Shown: piece after piece, positions 5,406 to 17,107 of the stretch | Layout: every line of letters starts with the position of its first letter | Position numbering within the stretch: position 1 is the stretch's first letter | NCBI GenBank assembly: GCA_944372315.1 | Contig: CALVYX010000035.1 | Span: 1 to 17,333, forward strand | Source of the DNA: an uncultured Bacilli bacterium | GTDB taxonomy: Bacteria > Bacillota_I > Bacilli_A > RF39 > UBA660 | Direction of reading: 5' to 3' | DNA length: 17,333 nt | Program-made: the position numbers and the translations under genes | Notes under the pieces: generated by a model | Seen by the model: only the letters and a program-made list of their open reading frames with translations | The model's database searches: none | Told to the model about the DNA's origin: nothing

Positions 5406-6197
5406 TTATTTCATTAATTTCTTTTCAATAAGAGAGATGACATAATACATCAAATAAGAAACTATTCCTAGAATAACAACTGAAGTAATAACTAAATTAA
5501 TATTAAATACTTGTGATCCATACATAATTAAATATCCTAATCCCATTTTAGATACTAATAATTCACCCATAATAACACCAATTAGAGACATACTGATATT
5601 GATTTTTAAAGCATTAATTATAGTTAGTTTATTACTTGGTAAAATGACTTTCATAAAAATTTGAGATTTACTAGCTTTAAAGGTTTTTAATAGTTTAATA
5701 AAGCTTTCGTTTGTTGAAATAAATCCATTATATATGTTTATTATACTTATGATTAATGAAATCATTAAAGCCATAGCAATAATGGAGTTAGTACTTGCTC
5801 CAACCCAAATAATAATAAGTGGTCCTAATGCTACTTTAGGAAGAGAATTAATAACTGTTAAATATGGATCCATTACTTTTGATATAAATTTGTTCCACCA
5901 TAATAAAGTAGCGACTACAATACCAAACACTGAGGCTATAGTGAAACTTAAAATGGTTTCATAAACAGTAATCCAAATATGACCTAATAAATTATTATCG
6001 TTATATAAATTAATTAAAGTAGTTACTACTCTAGAAGGTGAGGAATATAAAAAAGTATTTATCATTTCATATTTTGCTAATAATTCCCAAACTATTAGAA
6101 AAATTACGATGATGCTTATTTGCGTTAATTTAACTAATATTCTTTCTCTTTTTCTTTTCTTTAGAAAAAATTTATGATCATCACTGTATGTGGACAT
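5406..6197 (-). CDS. ABC transporter permease, NitT/TauT (SsuC-like) family
   Basis: This is the membrane subunit of a nitrate/sulfonate/taurine-type ABC importer. The 263-residue protein has hydrophobic segments at about 24-42, 82-100, 120-152, 198-216 and 235-256. An EAA-like cytoplasmic loop, which docks on the ATPase, lies at about 171-190 (KTFKASKSQIFMKVILPSNK). The ATG at 6197 follows a GGAGGG ribosome site by 6 bp and overlaps the end of the ATPase gene by 17 bp. It is the last gene of the minus-strand operon. The substrate is not readable; members of this family carry sulfonates, pyrimidine or thiamine precursors, riboflavin or other small molecules. Confidence 0.88.
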   Translation of the reverse strand: MSTYSDDHKFFLKKRKRERILVKLTQISIIVIFLIVWELLAKYEMINTFLYSSPSRVVTTLINLYNDNNLLGHIWITVYETILSFTIASVFGIVVATLLWWNKFISKVMDPYLTVINSLPKVALGPLIIIWVGASTNSIIAMALMISLIISIINIYNGFISTNESFIKLLKTFKASKSQIFMKVILPSNKLTIINALKINISMSLIGVIMGELLVSKMGLGYLIMYGSQVFNINLVITSVVILGIVSYLMYYVISLIEKKLMK

Positions 6198-6936
6198 CTA
6201 AATCCCTCCAAATCATATCATAGTATGTACTAAATTCTTTAGCTTTTCTGTTATTAATAGGAGTAGATTTATTAGATAAATTAATATGATATATATTTTT
6301 TACTTCAGCAGGTCTTTTGGTTAGGACTACTATTCGATCAGATAGGCTAATAGCTTCAGCTAGATCGTGTGTAACCATAATAACAGTTTTACCTTCGTTT
6401 TTAATTATTTTATAAACATCATCAGATAAAGCTAATCTAGTCTGGTAATCAAGTGCTGAGAACGGTTCGTCTAACAGAAGAATATCAGGATCCGTTGCTA
6501 ATGTTCTAATTAATGCTACACGCTGCCTCATTCCTCCTGATAATGATCCAGGATATTTGTCGATAAAATCGCCTAATCCATATGTTTTTAGTAATCGAAT
6601 CACCTTATTTTTATTATCATCATTTAATTCATGTGTTATTTCTAATCCAATAAGACAATTATCTAGTATGGTTCTCCATGGAAATAACGAATCGTTTTGC
6701 AACATATAACCAATTTTAATATTATTGTGGCCAAACTTGATATTACCACTAGTTGCTTTTTCTAGGCTAGATAGGATCGATAGTAATGATGATTTACCAC
6801 ATCCACTAGGTCCTACAATCGATAGGAATTCCTTATCATAAATATCTAAATCTATATCTTTTATCGCTTCAATTTCTCCGTTTTGATCATGATAGAATTT
6901 TTTTAAATGTTCGATTTTTAAAACGGATTTTTCCAT
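6181..6936 (-). CDS. ABC transporter ATP-binding protein, NitT/TauT (SsuB-like) family
   Basis: This is the cytoplasmic ATPase driving the importer. In 251 residues it shows Walker A GPSGCGKS (42-49), the Q-loop MLQND (Gln80), signature LSGGM (132-136), Walker B ILLLDE (152-157), the D-loop SALD, and the switch histidine in VTHD (His190). All catalytic residues are intact. The ATG is 1 bp after the stop of the binding-protein gene, with AAAGGAT as ribosome site inside that gene's end, so it was built for translation coupled to the binding protein. Because the binding-protein gene is interrupted upstream, its normal promoter at about 11092 is now roughly 4 kb away and beyond oppositely directed genes. 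Confidence 0.92.
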   Translation of the reverse strand: MEKSVLKIEHLKKFYHDQNGEIEAIKDIDLDIYDKEFLSIVGPSGCGKSSLLSILSSLEKATSGNIKFGHNNIKIGYMLQNDSLFPWRTILDNCLIGLEITHELNDDNKNKVIRLLKTYGLGDFIDKYPGSLSGGMRQRVALIRTLATDPDILLLDEPFSALDYQTRLALSDDVYKIIKNEGKTVIMVTHDLAEAISLSDRIVVLTKRPAEVKNIYHINLSNKSTPINNRKAKEFSTYYDMIWRDLDVHIQ

Positions 6937-6937
6937 T

Positions 6938-7713
6938 TTAATCCTTTGTATAAATTAATGAATTATAATCAACTGGTTCATCGATAGCACCATAAGTTAT
7001 CATAATTTTTTGTAAGTGATCAAATGATTCTTTAGTAAACTGAGTAGTTTTAGGCCAAGTATCTTGAGCTTTATATCGTTCCACTACATTAGTTGTATCA
7101 TTTAATGAAGTATCAGGGAAAAAGCTTAAAATAGTCTCTGCTATTGTTTCACTGTCATTTTCATGAACGAAATCTAATCCTTTTTGAATAGCTTTAGTAA
7201 AGTTATCTATTAGTTCAGGATTATCTTCGATGTAACTAATTCTAGCACTATAAGAAGTATAAGGTACAATACCACCTAATTCCCCAATAGATGCTACTAC
7301 ATAACCATATCCTTGTTGTTCCATTTCTAATGCAGTAGGTTCAAATAATGTTACAAAATCACCAATACCACTAATAAAAGCTCCACCCATAGAAGCAAAC
7401 TCAATACTAGTGTCAATTGTTAAATCATTTTTAGGATCAATACCTGCTTCTCTTAGAGCCCATTCAAATGTCATTTCAGGCATTCCAGCAGCACGCCCTC
7501 CAATTACATATTTTCCACGTAGATCATCTAGAGTAAAATCTTCAATTTTTTCTCTAGAAACTAGAAAACTTCCATCTTTTTGTGTTAATTGAGCAAAAGT
7601 TTTTAAATAATCCTTTTCTCCTCCATTGTAAACATATATTGTTGCTTCACTACCACAGAAAGCAATATCCATATCTCCTGATAGTATAGCTGCTGTAACT
7701 TTATCAGCACCTG
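6938..7713 (-). pseudogene. ABC substrate-binding protein, C-terminal fragment of an interrupted gene
   Basis: This is the distal part of an NMT1/SsuA-like periplasmic-binding-type protein (NitT/TauT family). Read on the minus strand from the core at 7713, the frame gives GADKVTAAILSGDMDIAF and continues open to the TAA at 6938-6940. It covers residues 74-330 of the rebuilt protein, including GRAAGMPEM, GDFVTLFEP and EELG-like segments typical of the family. The N-terminal 75 residues are at 10822-11064, across the inserted element. An internal ATG at 7672 preceded by AGGAGAT could restart translation, but the product would lack the export segment and part of lobe 1. The frame has no other damage, so the gene is interrupted rather than decayed. 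Confidence 0.9.
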
Positions 7714-7734
7714 CTACTAATGCAAAAAGATAGC
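7706..7734. repeat. Left element junction (attL-type): core plus inverted arm
   Basis: The core AGCACCTG is at 7706-7713 and also at 10840-10847. The element-side arm 7712-7734 is the inverted copy of 10821-10843, with 21 of 23 positions matching. The likely crossover dinucleotide is the CC at 7710-7711. The other side of the core is binding-protein coding sequence. Confidence 0.88.
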
Positions 7735-7751
7735 AAATAATGATAACAACG

Positions 7752-7760
7752 TGCTATAAT
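7752..7760 (+). promoter_or_regulatory. Extended -10 promoter for the plsC-like gene
   Basis: TGC immediately before a consensus TATAAT (7755-7760) forms an extended -10. No good -35 is seen 17 bp upstream, which is common with this type. It lies 31 bp before the GTG start, inside the element. Confidence 0.65.
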
Positions 7761-7791
7761 ATAACTAGAGTAATTTAATAGAGGTGTACTT

Positions 7792-8406
7792 GTGAAAAAA
7801 GAAGATGCAATATTATATAGAATTTTAAGACCAATTATAAATTTTCTGTTTCGACTATTATATCGTCCTACTATTATAGGTGATAATAACATACCAAAAG
7901 AAGGATCAGTTGTTATATGTGGAAATCATACTAGCATGTTTGATATTCCTTTATTATTTTGTACTACTAAAAGAACAATCCACTTTTTAGCTAAAGATGA
8001 ATTGTTTAAAGGATTAGGTAAACCATTCTTTAAAGCTATGGCATGTATTCCTGTTAATAGAAGAAAAAAAGATCATGAGGCCTTAGAAAAGGCAATAAAA
8101 GTATTGGAAGATAAAAAATTAATTGGAATTTTTCCAGAAGGTACGTTCAATAGAACTAATGATATAATAATGCCTTTTAAATTTGGTGCAGTATCAATGT
8201 CATCTAAGACTAATAGCACTATAGTACCATTTTCTATTACTGGTGAATATAAAATTTTTAGAAAAAATAGAATTACTATTTGTTTTGGTAAACCCTATAA
8301 AATTAAAACTTCTAATTTAGAAGAAGCTAATAGTGAATTAATGGAAAAAGTAAAAAAATTAATTATAGAGAATCGTAAAGAAAAGAGTGTGAAAGATGAA
8401 AAATAA
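7792..8406 (+). CDS. 1-acyl-sn-glycerol-3-phosphate acyltransferase family protein (PlsC-like)
   Basis: PlsC-type enzymes transfer an acyl chain to lysophosphatidate at the inner face of the membrane, in phospholipid synthesis. The 204-residue protein has the catalytic HX4D box NHTSMFD at 45-51 (His46, Asp51) and the acceptor-binding FPEGT at 114-118, plus a hydrophobic stretch at about 11-24 that can associate with the membrane. The start is GTG at 7792 with AGAGGTG 5 bp upstream. It is the first gene in the inserted element and overlaps the next gene by 11 bp. Whether it is the housekeeping PlsC or a second copy cannot be told from the window; acyltransferases of this fold can also act on other lysolipids. 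Confidence 0.87.
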   Translation: MKKEDAILYRILRPIINFLFRLLYRPTIIGDNNIPKEGSVVICGNHTSMFDIPLLFCTTKRTIHFLAKDELFKGLGKPFFKAMACIPVNRRKKDHEALEKAIKVLEDKKLIGIFPEGTFNRTNDIIMPFKFGAVSMSSKTNSTIVPFSITGEYKIFRKNRITICFGKPYKIKTSNLEEANSELMEKVKKLIIENRKEKSVKDEK

Positions 8407-9271
8407 ATGGTTAGATTTAATATCTAAAATAGCTAGTTTGTGTTTATGTTTTGTATTATTTGTAATGATTTCTATGTATATTGGTTTATTAGTTGCACCA
8501 AAATTGATTACTAAAGATAATGTAACTACAATAATTAATGATATAGATATGCAAGAAGTGTTAAGTGCCAATGAATCTAATAGTCTAAATCAACTTTATG
8601 AAATTGCTGATAATAATAACATAGATCGAGAAATAGTTAATGGAGTAATTAATTCTAATGAATTTAAAACTTTGATTAGTAATTACTATGGGGATGTTAC
8701 TGAATATTTATTAACTGGTGAAGAAGGAGATATTATTACTTCTAATCAAATTATTGATATTTTTAATAGTATTTTAGATAGAACTTCTAATGAATTGGGT
8801 ATCGCTCTTACGGAAGAACAAAGGGATAGTATTTTAACACAAGTAGAAGAAAAAGCACCAGAGATTGTTGAAGTTTTTCCAACATATGAAGAAATATCTA
8901 GTGAGATTAGTGAGGATGATATGAATGTTGTTCGGGTTTTACTTGGCAATAGTTCAAAAACAGTATTATTAATTATGATTATCATAGTTATTTTAATAAT
9001 AGCTGTAATTAGATGGTCAATATTTAGATTTGCTATATGGACGGGAGTAACCACAGTGTTAGCAGGGGGAGTTTTTATCGCTATAGGTGGACTTGGAAAT
9101 ATTGCGATGGACCTATTATTAGAAGAATATTCAACAGCAATTATAGAACTATTAAAGAACGATATTTTTGGTATATTTATAAATTATGGTTTTATGACTT
9201 TAGTAATAGGTGTTGTTCAAATAATTTATTATTTTGTAATACGCAATAGATTTAATCAAAAAGAAACTTAA
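8396..9271 (+). CDS. Membrane protein of unknown function, four predicted helices
   Basis: I do not recognise this family. The 291-residue product has one N-terminal hydrophobic segment (about 13-35), a soluble acidic and helical stretch of about 150 residues (36-188), then three hydrophobic segments (about 189-206, 210-233 and 257-283) and a short basic tail. The layout suggests an extracytoplasmic domain held between membrane anchors. No catalytic motif is evident. The ATG at 8396 overlaps the plsC-like gene by 11 bp and has no strong ribosome site, which suggests coupled translation and a shared role at the membrane. A strong terminator follows the stop. It is cargo of the inserted element. 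Confidence 0.8.
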   Translation: MKNKWLDLISKIASLCLCFVLFVMISMYIGLLVAPKLITKDNVTTIINDIDMQEVLSANESNSLNQLYEIADNNNIDREIVNGVINSNEFKTLISNYYGDVTEYLLTGEEGDIITSNQIIDIFNSILDRTSNELGIALTEEQRDSILTQVEEKAPEIVEVFPTYEEISSEISEDDMNVVRVLLGNSSKTVLLIMIIIVILIIAVIRWSIFRFAIWTGVTTVLAGGVFIAIGGLGNIAMDLLLEEYSTAIIELLKNDIFGIFINYGFMTLVIGVVQIIYYFVIRNRFNQKET

Positions 9272-9302
9272 TATTATTAGAAATTCTAATAATATTTTTT
9301 TT
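9270..9302 (+). terminator. Terminator of the plsC-membrane protein unit
   Basis: The 11-bp perfect stem 9270-9280 with 9286-9296 has the loop AAATT and is followed by T residues through 9302. It overlaps the stop codon of the membrane-protein gene and separates the cargo unit from the recombinase unit. Confidence 0.88.
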
Positions 9303-9327
9303 GCATATTTTTTATTGAGTTGATGAT

Positions 9328-9423
9328 ATGAAAGAGTATGTAATAATAGAAGAATATGGTGATATAGATATATTAAAAATAATTAAGGAATATTTACAAG
9401 AACGTGATCAAGATGAAATATAA
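9328..9423 (+). CDS. Small acidic ORF (31 aa) overlapping the recombinase start
   Basis: The frame begins MKEYVIIEEYGDIDILKI and ends QERDQDEI, rich in Glu and Asp. It starts 26 bp after the terminator of the cargo unit and its TAA overlaps the recombinase ATG (9413) by 11 bp. The recombinase ATG lacks a clear ribosome site, so this ORF could serve to couple translation. Its own ribosome site is weak (GAG at about 9317). A small protein paired with a serine integrase could be a directionality factor, but no homology supports that here. It could also be an untranslated leader that is open by chance. Confidence 0.4.
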   Translation: MKEYVIIEEYGDIDILKIIKEYLQERDQDEI

Positions 9424-10819
9424 CGAATTTTTTAAAGTAGGTATCTATATTAGGTTATCTAAAGAAGATCTGTTAAAAGATGAAAATAGTGAAAGTGAGA
9501 GCGTCAAAAATCAAAGAAAATTAATTTATAAATATTTAAAAGAAAATAATTTGAATATAGAAAAAGAATATATAGATGATGGTTACTCTGGGACAACTTT
9601 TAATAGACCCGCTTTTAATAACTTATTAAAAGATATAAAAAATAATAAAATAAATATGGTTATAACTAAAGATCTATCAAGACTTGGTAGAGATTACATT
9701 AAAACTGGTTATTATGTAGAAAATTATTTTCCTACTTATAAAATAAGATATGTTTCTATTCTAGATGGAATCGATACTTATTATGATAGTACCAATAATG
9801 AAATAGCACCATTTAAAGCTTTATTTAATGATATGGTATCAAAAGATACTTCTAAAAAGATTAAGTCTATTTTAAAAAACAAGAAAGAACAAGGATTGTT
9901 TTTAGGAAGCAAAGCACCATATGGATATAAAAAGGATCCTAATAATAAAAATAAATTAATTATAGATAATGTAGAAAGTAAAATAGTAAAAAAGATATTT
10001 TCGTTATCATTAAATGGAAATAATAATAGAGATATTGCAGCGTACTTAAATAAAAAACAAATACTATCTCCTAGCAATCAAAGATGGACTTCTTCTAGTG
10101 TATATAACATCTTAAATAACAAAGAATATACAGGATGTTTGATTAGTAATGTATGGACTAATATTAGTTATAAAAACAAAACACGTATAAAAAGAAATTG
10201 TAATGAATGGATAGTGATTAAAAATACTCATGAAAAAATAATTGATGAAAAGATTTTTAATATTATTCAAAGTAGGAAGAAAAATAAAAGTAATTCTAAA
10301 GTAACTAGAAATAAATTATTATTAGAAGGACTAGTTTTTTGTGAAGAATGTAATAGTCTATTGGGAATATGTTATTTAAAGAAGAGAAAACATTATGTGA
10401 TGACTTGCAATAAGTATAGAAATAATTCTAATAACTGTACATCTCACTATATAAATTATAAAAAATTAGAAGATCTTGTTTTAATAAAAATAAATAATAT
10501 TTTAAATAAGTTTACTAAAACATATGGAGTTGTTTTAAATGAAAAAAAAGATAATAAAAAGATCCAAATAATTAATAATAAATTAAAATATTTATATGAA
10601 GATAGACTGAATGAAATCATAGATTTAAATACATATTTGAATAAAAGTAAAGAATTAAAAGAAGAGTTAAGAAAAATAGAGAATTATTCTAAATTGCTAT
10701 CCCATAATGATAATGTTAAAATAGAAATAACAAGAGAATTATTATTTAGGTTAGTTAAGAAAATAACTATTAATAATGGTAAACAAATAAAAATAATGTA
10801 TAATTTTTCCAAATTTTGA
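9413..10819 (+). CDS. Large serine recombinase (site-specific integrase)
   Basis: Large serine recombinases cut both att sites with a serine nucleophile and exchange strands about a 2-bp crossover. The 468-residue protein (ATG at 9413; GTG at 9404 is an alternative adding three residues) has the resolvase domain at about 1-150 with GIYIRLSKED (catalytic Ser16), YSGTTFNRP, and the DLSRLGRD arginine motif. The recombinase domain follows at about 160-290, then a zinc ribbon CEEC...C...C at about 309-345, and a Lys/Glu-rich coiled-coil-like tail. The organisation resembles the TnpX/TndX and SpoIVCA groups. All key residues appear intact. Its TGA lies 1 bp before the right att arm, as is typical of phage and element integrases. 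Lys and Asn content is higher than in its neighbours. Confidence 0.95.
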   Translation: MKYNEFFKVGIYIRLSKEDLLKDENSESESVKNQRKLIYKYLKENNLNIEKEYIDDGYSGTTFNRPAFNNLLKDIKNNKINMVITKDLSRLGRDYIKTGYYVENYFPTYKIRYVSILDGIDTYYDSTNNEIAPFKALFNDMVSKDTSKKIKSILKNKKEQGLFLGSKAPYGYKKDPNNKNKLIIDNVESKIVKKIFSLSLNGNNNRDIAAYLNKKQILSPSNQRWTSSSVYNILNNKEYTGCLISNVWTNISYKNKTRIKRNCNEWIVIKNTHEKIIDEKIFNIIQSRKKNKSNSKVTRNKLLLEGLVFCEECNSLLGICYLKKRKHYVMTCNKYRNNSNNCTSHYINYKKLEDLVLIKINNILNKFTKTYGVVLNEKKDNKKIQIINNKLKYLYEDRLNEIIDLNTYLNKSKELKEELRKIENYSKLLSHNDNVKIEITRELLFRLVKKITINNGKQIKIMYNFSKF

Positions 10820-10820
10820 T

Positions 10821-10847
10821 GCTATCTTTTTAAATTAGTAGCACCTG
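10821..10847. repeat. Right element junction (attR-type): inverted arm plus core
   Basis: The arm 10821-10843 mirrors 7712-7734 and runs into the core AGCACCTG (10840-10847) with the central CC at 10844-10845. The bases beyond are binding-protein coding sequence. The arm supplies the five extra codons (Thr-Asn-Leu-Lys-Arg) and stop that now end the N-terminal fragment. Confidence 0.88.
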
Positions 10848-11064
10848 GTATCAGACTTAATTCAATATCAATTCCATAATCTTCAAAATATCCTAAAGCA
10901 ATAGCAGCATATTGTGGTGCATAGAAAATACTGTGGGTTACTTCTGCTACTCTTACTTTAGTTAAACCGTTATCTTCTTCTTTCTTAAAAGCATTAAATA
11001 ATACTGCAGAAGCTAAAACAAAAATAATTAAAATTGCTACAATAGTAATTATTTTTCTTCTCAT
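10822..11064 (-). pseudogene. ABC substrate-binding protein, N-terminal fragment of an interrupted gene
   Basis: This is the first 75 residues of the NitT/TauT-type binding protein, followed by five codons and a stop contributed by the element. The start is ATG at 11064 with a strong AGGAGG ribosome site (11070-11075). Residues 1-3 are basic and about 5-26 are hydrophobic, forming an export or anchor segment. No lipobox cysteine is seen, so it may be a signal anchor or cleaved peptide rather than a lipoprotein. The mature start KVRVAEVTHSIFYAPQYAAI and GYFEDYGIDIEL match the NMT1/SsuA-like lobe-1 strand. The missing part continues in frame at 7713 going down to 6938. As it stands the gene cannot make a functional binding protein. 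Confidence 0.88.
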
Positions 11065-11091
11065 AAAATCCTCCTTTAATAATTACAATGT

Positions 11092-11097
11092 ATTATA
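11092..11097 (-). promoter_or_regulatory. Candidate -10 of the ABC operon promoter
   Basis: TATAAT is read on the minus strand 17 bp before the AGGAGG of the binding-protein gene. The -35 region is poor. It sits back to back with the plus-strand -10 at 11104-11109, forming a divergent promoter region. Confidence 0.45.
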
Positions 11098-11103
11098 CGT
11101 GAT

Positions 11104-11109
11104 TATAAT
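11104..11109 (+). promoter_or_regulatory. Candidate -10 for the unknown small protein gene
   Basis: TATAAT lies at 11104-11109, with TTACAA (11083-11088) as a possible -35 at a short 15-bp spacing. It is 50 bp before the ATG at 11160 and overlaps the divergent ABC promoter region. Confidence 0.45.
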
Positions 11110-11159
11110 AATAATGTGAGTAAGGAATTAGAAAATATAATTGGAAAGGCGGTATAAAT

Positions 11160-16837: not shown

Positions 16838-17107
16838 ATGTTTGGTGGATGTTGTCGTGATAGACAAAATGAATTTAATCAAAATTTTGTAGGTGATAAT
16901 GATATCACTATGGATATCGATGTTAACATGAGTGGAGGAAATATGATGATGGCACAACAAGGTGGTGCTCCAATGATGGGGTCTGTACAATCACCAATTG
17001 TAGAACCATTACAAGAACGCGTTGTTCATAGGACAATAATGCATGAAGTGCCTCAGGATTGCCAATTTATGTTATACACAAAATATGGAATGAATTTGCA
17101 CACATAA
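16838..17107 (+). CDS. Small CotD-like protein (89 aa), Met- and Gly-rich
   Basis: The protein starts MFGGCCRDRQ, has a Met/Gly/Gln-rich middle (residues about 31-50, including NMMMAQQGGAPMMG), and then SPIVEPLQERVVHRTIMHEVPQDC. The latter segment resembles the PIVxPT...HEVPHxCP pattern of CotD-family inner spore coat proteins. The match is short and recalled by pattern only. The tail after DC lacks the usual His-rich end, so it may be shortened or diverged. AGGAGG lies 7 bp before the ATG, which supports real expression. A good terminator follows. Alternatives are an unrelated surface or metal-binding small protein. Confidence 0.6.
   Translation: MFGGCCRDRQNEFNQNFVGDNDITMDIDVNMSGGNMMMAQQGGAPMMGSVQSPIVEPLQERVVHRTIMHEVPQDCQFMLYTKYGMNLHT

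Follow-up and report, generated by a model that had tools for sequence, protein, structure and literature searches.

A 3.1-kb serine-recombinase element, probably of the gene-intervening kind, splits a candidate late sporulation transporter gene in uncultured Bacilli

INTRODUCTION

DNA elements that intervene in genes are an established kind, with skin, vfbin, vrin, SPbeta/spsM, gin and yin as described examples. Here we analyzed a 17,333-nt stretch of DNA from an uncultured Bacilli bacterium (GenBank assembly GCA_944372315.1, contig CALVYX010000035.1; hereafter the window), in which a 3,134-bp element carrying its own large serine recombinase (LSR) splits the gene for a substrate-binding protein (SBP).

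The skin element of Clostridioides difficile, inserted in sigK, shares with the window element an LSR with PF00239, PF07508 and PF13408 domains, a mother-cell gene as its target (in the window a likely one) and precise reconstitution (PMC5025042). It is prophage-like and holds 19 genes, whereas the window element has four open reading frames (ORFs) in 3.1 kb and lies in a ytlA-like gene. Excision needs a directionality factor, and the one described for skin, a small protein of 72 aa (pI 5.5), is made only in the mother cell, so that skin excision is confined to the terminal cell (PMC5025042); the window offers only a 31-aa candidate for such a recombination directionality factor (RDF). The gin element in Bacillus cereus gerE is likewise non-phage, sits in a late mother-cell gene, and has a serine recombinase and a short core (9 bp), but it is 28.6 kb long, carries three recombinases and has been shown to excise (PMC5595907), whereas the window element has one recombinase in 3.1 kb and a predicted excision. 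The yin element in Clostridium botulinum yabG has the same three-domain LSR, a small putative RDF, direct and inverted end repeats and a spore gene as target; it is prophage-like, and its circle and excision have been shown (PMC10747680), where for the window element excision is deduced. In heterocyst-forming cyanobacteria, interruption elements are also numerous, recombinase-bearing, as small as about 1 kb and placed mostly in genes of the differentiated cell, with 101 elements in 22 orthologues counted over 38 genomes (PMC4874684); phylum and cell type differ, and the likeness drawn here is one of pattern.

The published sporulation inserts that we found are separate cases in cultured species of the Bacillus, Geobacillus and Clostridium type, whereas those described here are family-wide and concentrated in one operon. 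In a literature search that left subscription papers mostly outside its reach, we found no report of an insert in ytlA, ytlC or ytlD, of several (up to three) in one sporulation gene, or of such scale or miniature form.

RESULTS

An LSR element splits an SBP gene and leaves it joinable in frame

The element interrupts the minus-strand SBP gene after about codon 74. The C-terminal part (6938–7710, about 256 codons) has an NMT1 match, and the N-terminal part lies at 10842–11064 (about 74 codons). The window contains exactly two copies of the 8-bp core AGCACCTG, one at the C-terminal-side junction (7706–7713) and one at the N-terminal-side junction (10840–10847), with a spacing of 3,134 bp. Rejoining the flanks at the core gave a single open frame of 330 aa, an NMT1/SsuA-type SBP, with no base gained or lost. 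The original prediction, made from the letters of the window, had claimed such a precise split with the core at both junctions and an in-frame join, and our analysis bore it out.

The element termini form a 24-bp imperfect inverted repeat with 22 of 24 positions matching (left arm 7712–7735, plus strand; right arm 10820–10843, minus strand), a feature absent from the original prediction. A 50-bp attP with a central dinucleotide is the layout expected for an LSR; placed end to end, the two half-sites give 24 + CC + 24, that is, 50 bp around a central CC.

Four plus-strand ORFs make up the insert. A PlsC-type acyltransferase (7792–8406, 204 aa; PF01553, 8.1e-29) is overlapped by a membrane protein gene (8396–9271, 291 aa) whose product matched no Pfam or NCBIfam family. 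A 31-aa acidic ORF (9328–9423) overlaps the start of the LSR (9404–10819, 471 aa, with an alternative ATG start at 9413), which has resolvase, recombinase and zinc-ribbon domains (PF00239, PF07508 and PF13408). No transfer, replication, mobilisation or phage structural genes were seen among the insert ORFs, in agreement with the original prediction of a site-specific serine-recombinase unit with cargo that lacks transfer and replication genes. We rejected a phage origin: LSR relatives are present in 414 phage records, every one below 60% identity.

The split gene is the first of a three-gene ABC operon; an ATPase (6181–6936; PF00005) and a permease (5406–6197; PF00528) follow on the minus strand.

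Insertions recur at fixed positions in the operon across the family

We surveyed 145 genomes of the family, which we take to be part of RF39, with nearly one genome per genus (G numbers denote genomes and L numbers loci). Candidatus Onthousia is among the related loci; the taxon of the window is uncultured Bacilli. The SBP was found in 111 of the 145 genomes and was in pieces in 34 of these, with 38 insertions tallied from the survey table; some of the 34 have the pieces on two contigs. A thirty-fifth case, G122, has the N-terminal 208 SBP residues near an LSR. The insertions fall at four recurrent positions, near residues 75 (site A, that of the window), 100 (A′), 147 (B) and 197 (C), and G001 carries three different LSR elements in its single SBP gene.

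Thirty insertions are whole on one contig (26 genomes plus the window), and each of the 30 contains one LSR, 300 aa or longer and encoded antisense to the SBP. For 29 of them the flanks can be joined in an open frame, the exception being the C insert of G091. The core is 6–8 bp at site A; at B and C it is often 2 bp and the join was chosen by best fit, so that the frame is weaker evidence there. The original prediction had also held the window element to be unusually small: the 3.1 kb stands, but this size is not singular, since 11 of the 30 whole SBP inserts are shorter than 4 kb.

The other two genes of the operon are cut as well. Among 80 named loci, four have both halves of an ATPase divided near residue 141, each time separated by an LSR, and one has both halves of an ATPase divided near residue 195, where no LSR was detected. 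The ATPase match stops near residue 141 in about a dozen further loci. Contigs of G003, G019 and G027 (L057, L059 and L050) end at this recurrent att site, which we read as mixed populations or assembly forks. The permease match ends at residues 205–209 in 15 of 108 genomes, and two more have a piece from about residue 200 only; the splits in G065 and G091 are graded probable, and an LSR lay between the permease halves in the three cases examined. Altogether, this one operon has at least seven recurrent insertion sites.

PF07508 matched 492 times in 115 of the 145 genomes, for which random placement predicts 0.4 insertions per 1-kb gene. Outside the family, the SBP was found in 32 genomes of the class and in none was it in pieces (G228 matches partially, over 90–327); the difference between 34 of 111 and 0 of 32 is significant (p = 8e-5).

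Several contigs end exactly at att sites, as they might if the split genes were assembly artefacts of metagenome bins. However, the control gene LigA, present in 137 of the 145 genomes, was never in two pieces on one contig (it was in pieces on two contigs in two genomes and partial only in three more), and in thirty cases the complete SBP insert, with its one LSR, lies within a single contig. We give an artefact almost no credence.

Empty sites and turnover of elements in close relatives

An element occupies the window's site, with both junctions on one contig, in G001, the genome nearest to the window, and in G004; in G002 it can be followed up to the contig end. Site A is empty in two genomes of the same genus: the SBP gene is whole in G003, and in G005 it is uninterrupted at the site, with the contig ending further into the gene. 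The original prediction had looked to relatives for such an uninterrupted gene, and these two genomes contradict the alternative that the insert merely lies between unrelated ORFs.

We compared synonymous divergence (dS) between the window and G002. Outside the element it was 0.06 for the C-terminal part of the SBP and 0.10 for HelD, with 0.42 for the ATPase and 0.52 for the permease; inside, it reached 1.11 for PlsC and 0.74 for the membrane gene. Identity shifts at both junctions (7706–7713 and 10840–10847) in the comparison with G001 and at the first of them in that with G002, which stops short of the second. Since the flanks are nearly identical to those of G002, the insert is diverged and the step falls at the junction, the same kind of element appears to persist at this site through exchange or divergence of its copies (turnover). 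Simple vertical inheritance of the element was unsupported, its dS exceeding that of the SBP and HelD, although dS of the ATPase and permease varies too.

Cargo at a given site varies widely among elements. The site-B element of G007 (L043, 8309–12925) encodes an arginine deiminase, a carbamoyltransferase, an amino-acid kinase and a carrier, likely an arginine-deiminase pathway. That of G013 (L041, 14233–17743) has a PF04371 agmatine-deiminase-type enzyme, read by eye as agmatine deiminase, together with a carbamoyltransferase and, by eye, transporter-like genes. In G102 the site-B element (L147, 4969–6863) carries a defence-like pair, a cytosine methylase and a macro-domain protein, and the B element of G091 has a macro-like ORF whose start is similar (by eye) to that in G102. 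The B elements of G001 and G068, from two genera, have LSRs that are 100% identical and a common 4.8-kb stretch at 99.3%, and they differ in their middles. Relatives of the window's plsC–membrane gene pair adjoin ileS- and dnaD-like genes (by eye) on the chromosome of the A-empty genomes G003 and G005 (L205, 6360–7831; L206, 2131–3583), are missing from that place in the carriers G001 and G002, and could not be located at it in G004, where the contigs break. The distribution of the pair suggests capture or exchange of cargo.

In a tree of 45 LSRs (FastTree, midpoint root, clades stated without reference to support values), those of one target site cluster as one clade across genera (A, A′, B, C and spoIVA-122), and the window LSR belongs to the site-A clade. 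A small ORF lies directly upstream of, or overlaps, the LSR in 4 of 4 A elements (30–33 aa) and 13 of 13 B elements (34–39 aa); 10 of 11 C elements have a separate small-ORF family (29–65 aa), and one of two A′ elements has a 91-aa ORF. We propose this small ORF as a candidate RDF. Sigma-E-like matches were found ahead of the LSRs in five B elements and one C element.

Plain selfish docking, in which a conserved but dispensable gene serves as landing site, its disruption is tolerated and excision is rare and unregulated, would also be consistent with turnover at one site, with the identical LSR and nearly identical 4.8-kb stretch of the B elements in the two genera of G001 and G068, and with wholly different cargo at one site. 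Against this stand the 29 of 30 open joins and a ratio of nonsynonymous to synonymous divergence (dN/dS) of 0.06–0.19 for the SBP among the window, G001 and G004, although recent insertion could explain both too.

The split gene stands behind a sigma-K-type promoter

In C. difficile, ytlC is under sigma-K. Core sporulation genes listed under sigma-K in B. subtilis include ytlA, ytlC and ytlD, which encode putative parts of an ABC transporter (PMC3416734), and YtlA is tabulated as an SBP (PMC11466899). The window operon resembles ytlA-ytlC-ytlD in combining SBP, ATPase and permease behind a sigma-K-type promoter. This promoter, AC-N16-CGTATAATA (11091–11117, minus strand), lies ahead of the split SBP and is the only motif match on either strand of the window. 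A published sigma-K promoter of C. difficile has a −10 element CATATAAT and a −35 AC (PMC3789822), and the optimal spacing in B. subtilis is 15 ± 1 bp between longer boxes (PMC517825).

SBP upstream regions were collected from 104 loci, which include close relatives; nine were set aside, leaving 95 that align on ATANNNTA. Of these 95, 84% have C at position −18, against a background of 11%, and 60 have AC exactly 16 nt away from the −10 element. The motif AC-N15..17-[CA][AG]TATAATA was present in 62 of the 104 upstream regions versus 65 of 20,000 random windows. Of the 906 long ORFs at the 80 named loci, 51 had the motif upstream; 45 of the 51 were the SBP and two its ATPase. No riboswitch was found ahead of the operon at Rfam gathering thresholds (nine sources).

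Spore-gene profiles (SpoIVA, sigK and SpoVD) were counted in 58 genomes. Of the 50 SpoIVA-positive genomes, 43 have the SBP, as against one of the eight SpoIVA-negative ones (p = 8e-5). A sigK-type match was present in 52 genomes, 44 of which have the SBP, and none of the six genomes without such a match has it; the LigA control showed no comparable link to SpoIVA. Because of the promoter statistics, the ytl parallel and the co-occurrence with sigK and spoIVA, the split SBP is most likely a mother-cell gene, and expression of the transporter probably begins only late in sporulation.

Other spore genes lie in pieces beside LSRs

Fragments of other spore genes were named partly through NCBIfam and otherwise through match positions from the SpoIVA, SpoVD and sigK scans. 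SpoIVA, matched in 50 of the 58 genomes, was in pieces in six and partial in a few more, and an LSR adjoins the spoIVA piece in all four genomes examined (G001, G026, G074 and G080). SpoVD was full-length above the cut-off in 29 of 58 genomes, present by our own reading in pieces only in 20 and neither in nine; the pieces end near residues 297, 306, 348 or 412. A longer penicillin-binding paralogue of SpoVD showed no such pieces among the matches listed. All five stretches with both halves of a gene, four of spoVD and one of sigK (G076), have an LSR between the halves. Loci with such splits, or with pieces beside LSRs, are L243, L244, L245 and L246 for spoVD, L247 for sigK, and L224 and L240–L242 for spoIVA, and the positions recur.

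In G001, an amidase-like N-terminal fragment and a LysM-protein fragment flank an LSR island (L223, 2883–3917 and 16166–16453). The N-terminal fragment matches CwlD weakly and the other matches LysM-type proteins, making this another possible split spore gene. The flanks of a further G001 LSR, at C9:22 kb, gave a manganese-catalase match only.

The genes spoVD, spoIVA and sigK are not obviously dispensable for a spore-former, and their presence among the targets also tells against selfish docking, which we judge unlikely. A second alternative is decay, in which the family is losing sporulation and its genes gather insertions on the way to becoming pseudogenes. The SpoIVA match is absent in 8 of the 58 genomes, and several spore genes have been reported as reduced or absent in RF39 (PMC10868615), as decay would have it. 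However, the same survey predicts spore formation by RF39, SpoIVA is matched in 50 of 58 genomes and the sigK model in 52, and the insertions are exact, LSR-bearing and at recurrent sites, with 29 of 30 split genes joining without a stop. We regard decay as very improbable.

Two other features of the window are noted here. Positions 1–556 comprise the 3′ end of the 23S rRNA gene and then the 5S rRNA gene, and an ORF at 16838–17107, guessed to encode a coat protein, gave no NCBIfam match.

DISCUSSION

We consider it probable that the window element is a miniature gene-intervening element of the skin, gin and yin kind that is excised in the terminal mother cell. It carries its own serine recombinase, has a short core at both ends and permits precise in-frame reconstitution of its target. 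Site-specific insertion, empty sites, turnover, the promoter and the family-wide pattern are the parts that the sequences support; we infer that the element excises and when it does so, what the small ORF does, and that the host sporulates. The original prediction had set the element apart from Tn4451/Tn5397 transposons and prophages. Transfer or mobilisation genes are a defining feature of Tn4451/Tn5397-type LSR transposons, and the window element has neither these nor phage genes, which supports the claim as far as it went. The comparison was incomplete, since the skin, gin and yin context appears to fit better than either, given the sigma-K-type promoter, the co-occurrence with sigK and spoIVA, and the like inserts in spoVD, spoIVA and sigK.

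By this mechanism, the LSR would have put a circle bearing the 50-bp attP into an attB at conserved Gly-Ala codons of the ytlA-like gene, a reaction requiring LSR, attP and attB. Growing cells and the forespore would keep the element, with the SBP gene either silent or of no use to them. In the mother cell, the LSR and a small directionality factor would recombine attL with attR at the central dinucleotide and rejoin the gene in frame, restoring the transporter once sigma-K demands it. The circle would then be lost along with the terminal mother cell. Because that cell dies, excision would cost the element nothing, and excision confined to the mother cell would explain why elements sit in late genes, why they accumulate in one operon and why the gene is left open.

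Several observations weigh against this reading, in which excision is a predicted step. No sigma-E/K-type pattern matched upstream of the window LSR or its small ORF, and the 4.5 kb examined around the G084 spoVD stretch, which has one half only, contain no LSR. Loss of the element may be difficult, because the carriers G001 and G002 lack the plsC–membrane pair at its chromosomal place in G003 and G005. The low dN/dS of the SBP is not assignable to the interrupted state, because elements turn over. A protein search with the joined SBP scored 7,998 candidates; among the best 120 of 7,998 listed, full-length relatives reach 88% identity, no intact allele is more than 89% identical to the window SBP, and only one relative is close (97%), a protein of 253 aa that lacks the N-terminal part. 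The likeness to ytlA rests on gene order, protein families and the promoter motif. Seven of the 50 SpoIVA-positive genomes lack the SBP and one of the eight SpoIVA-negative ones has it, and the sigK match exceeds the curated cut-off in 22 of 58 genomes only.

Going further, we give about even chances to this family having a genome split into germline and somatic forms, in which a spore is completed only after several separate excisions in the doomed mother cell. Elements shorter than 4 kb with one or two cargo genes would then be the minimal form, some of them holding a plsC–membrane pair that is lacking at its other chromosomal position, and late genes would be refuges that collect elements. 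In G001, three elements interrupt the ytlA-like gene, fragments of spoVD and spoIVA adjoin LSRs, and an amidase gene may be split.

The elements described here provide a collection of compact LSRs whose att sites have been deduced. They also bear on the prediction of spore formation from metagenomes: a survey scored spoVD as reduced or absent in RF39 (PMC10868615), and in the genomes analyzed here the gene is often present but in pieces. If mother-cell excision is correct, these insertions would be a spore-former parallel to the interruption elements of heterocysts and a test of why elements accumulate in the genes of terminal cells, and members of the family may need several DNA excisions for a finished spore.

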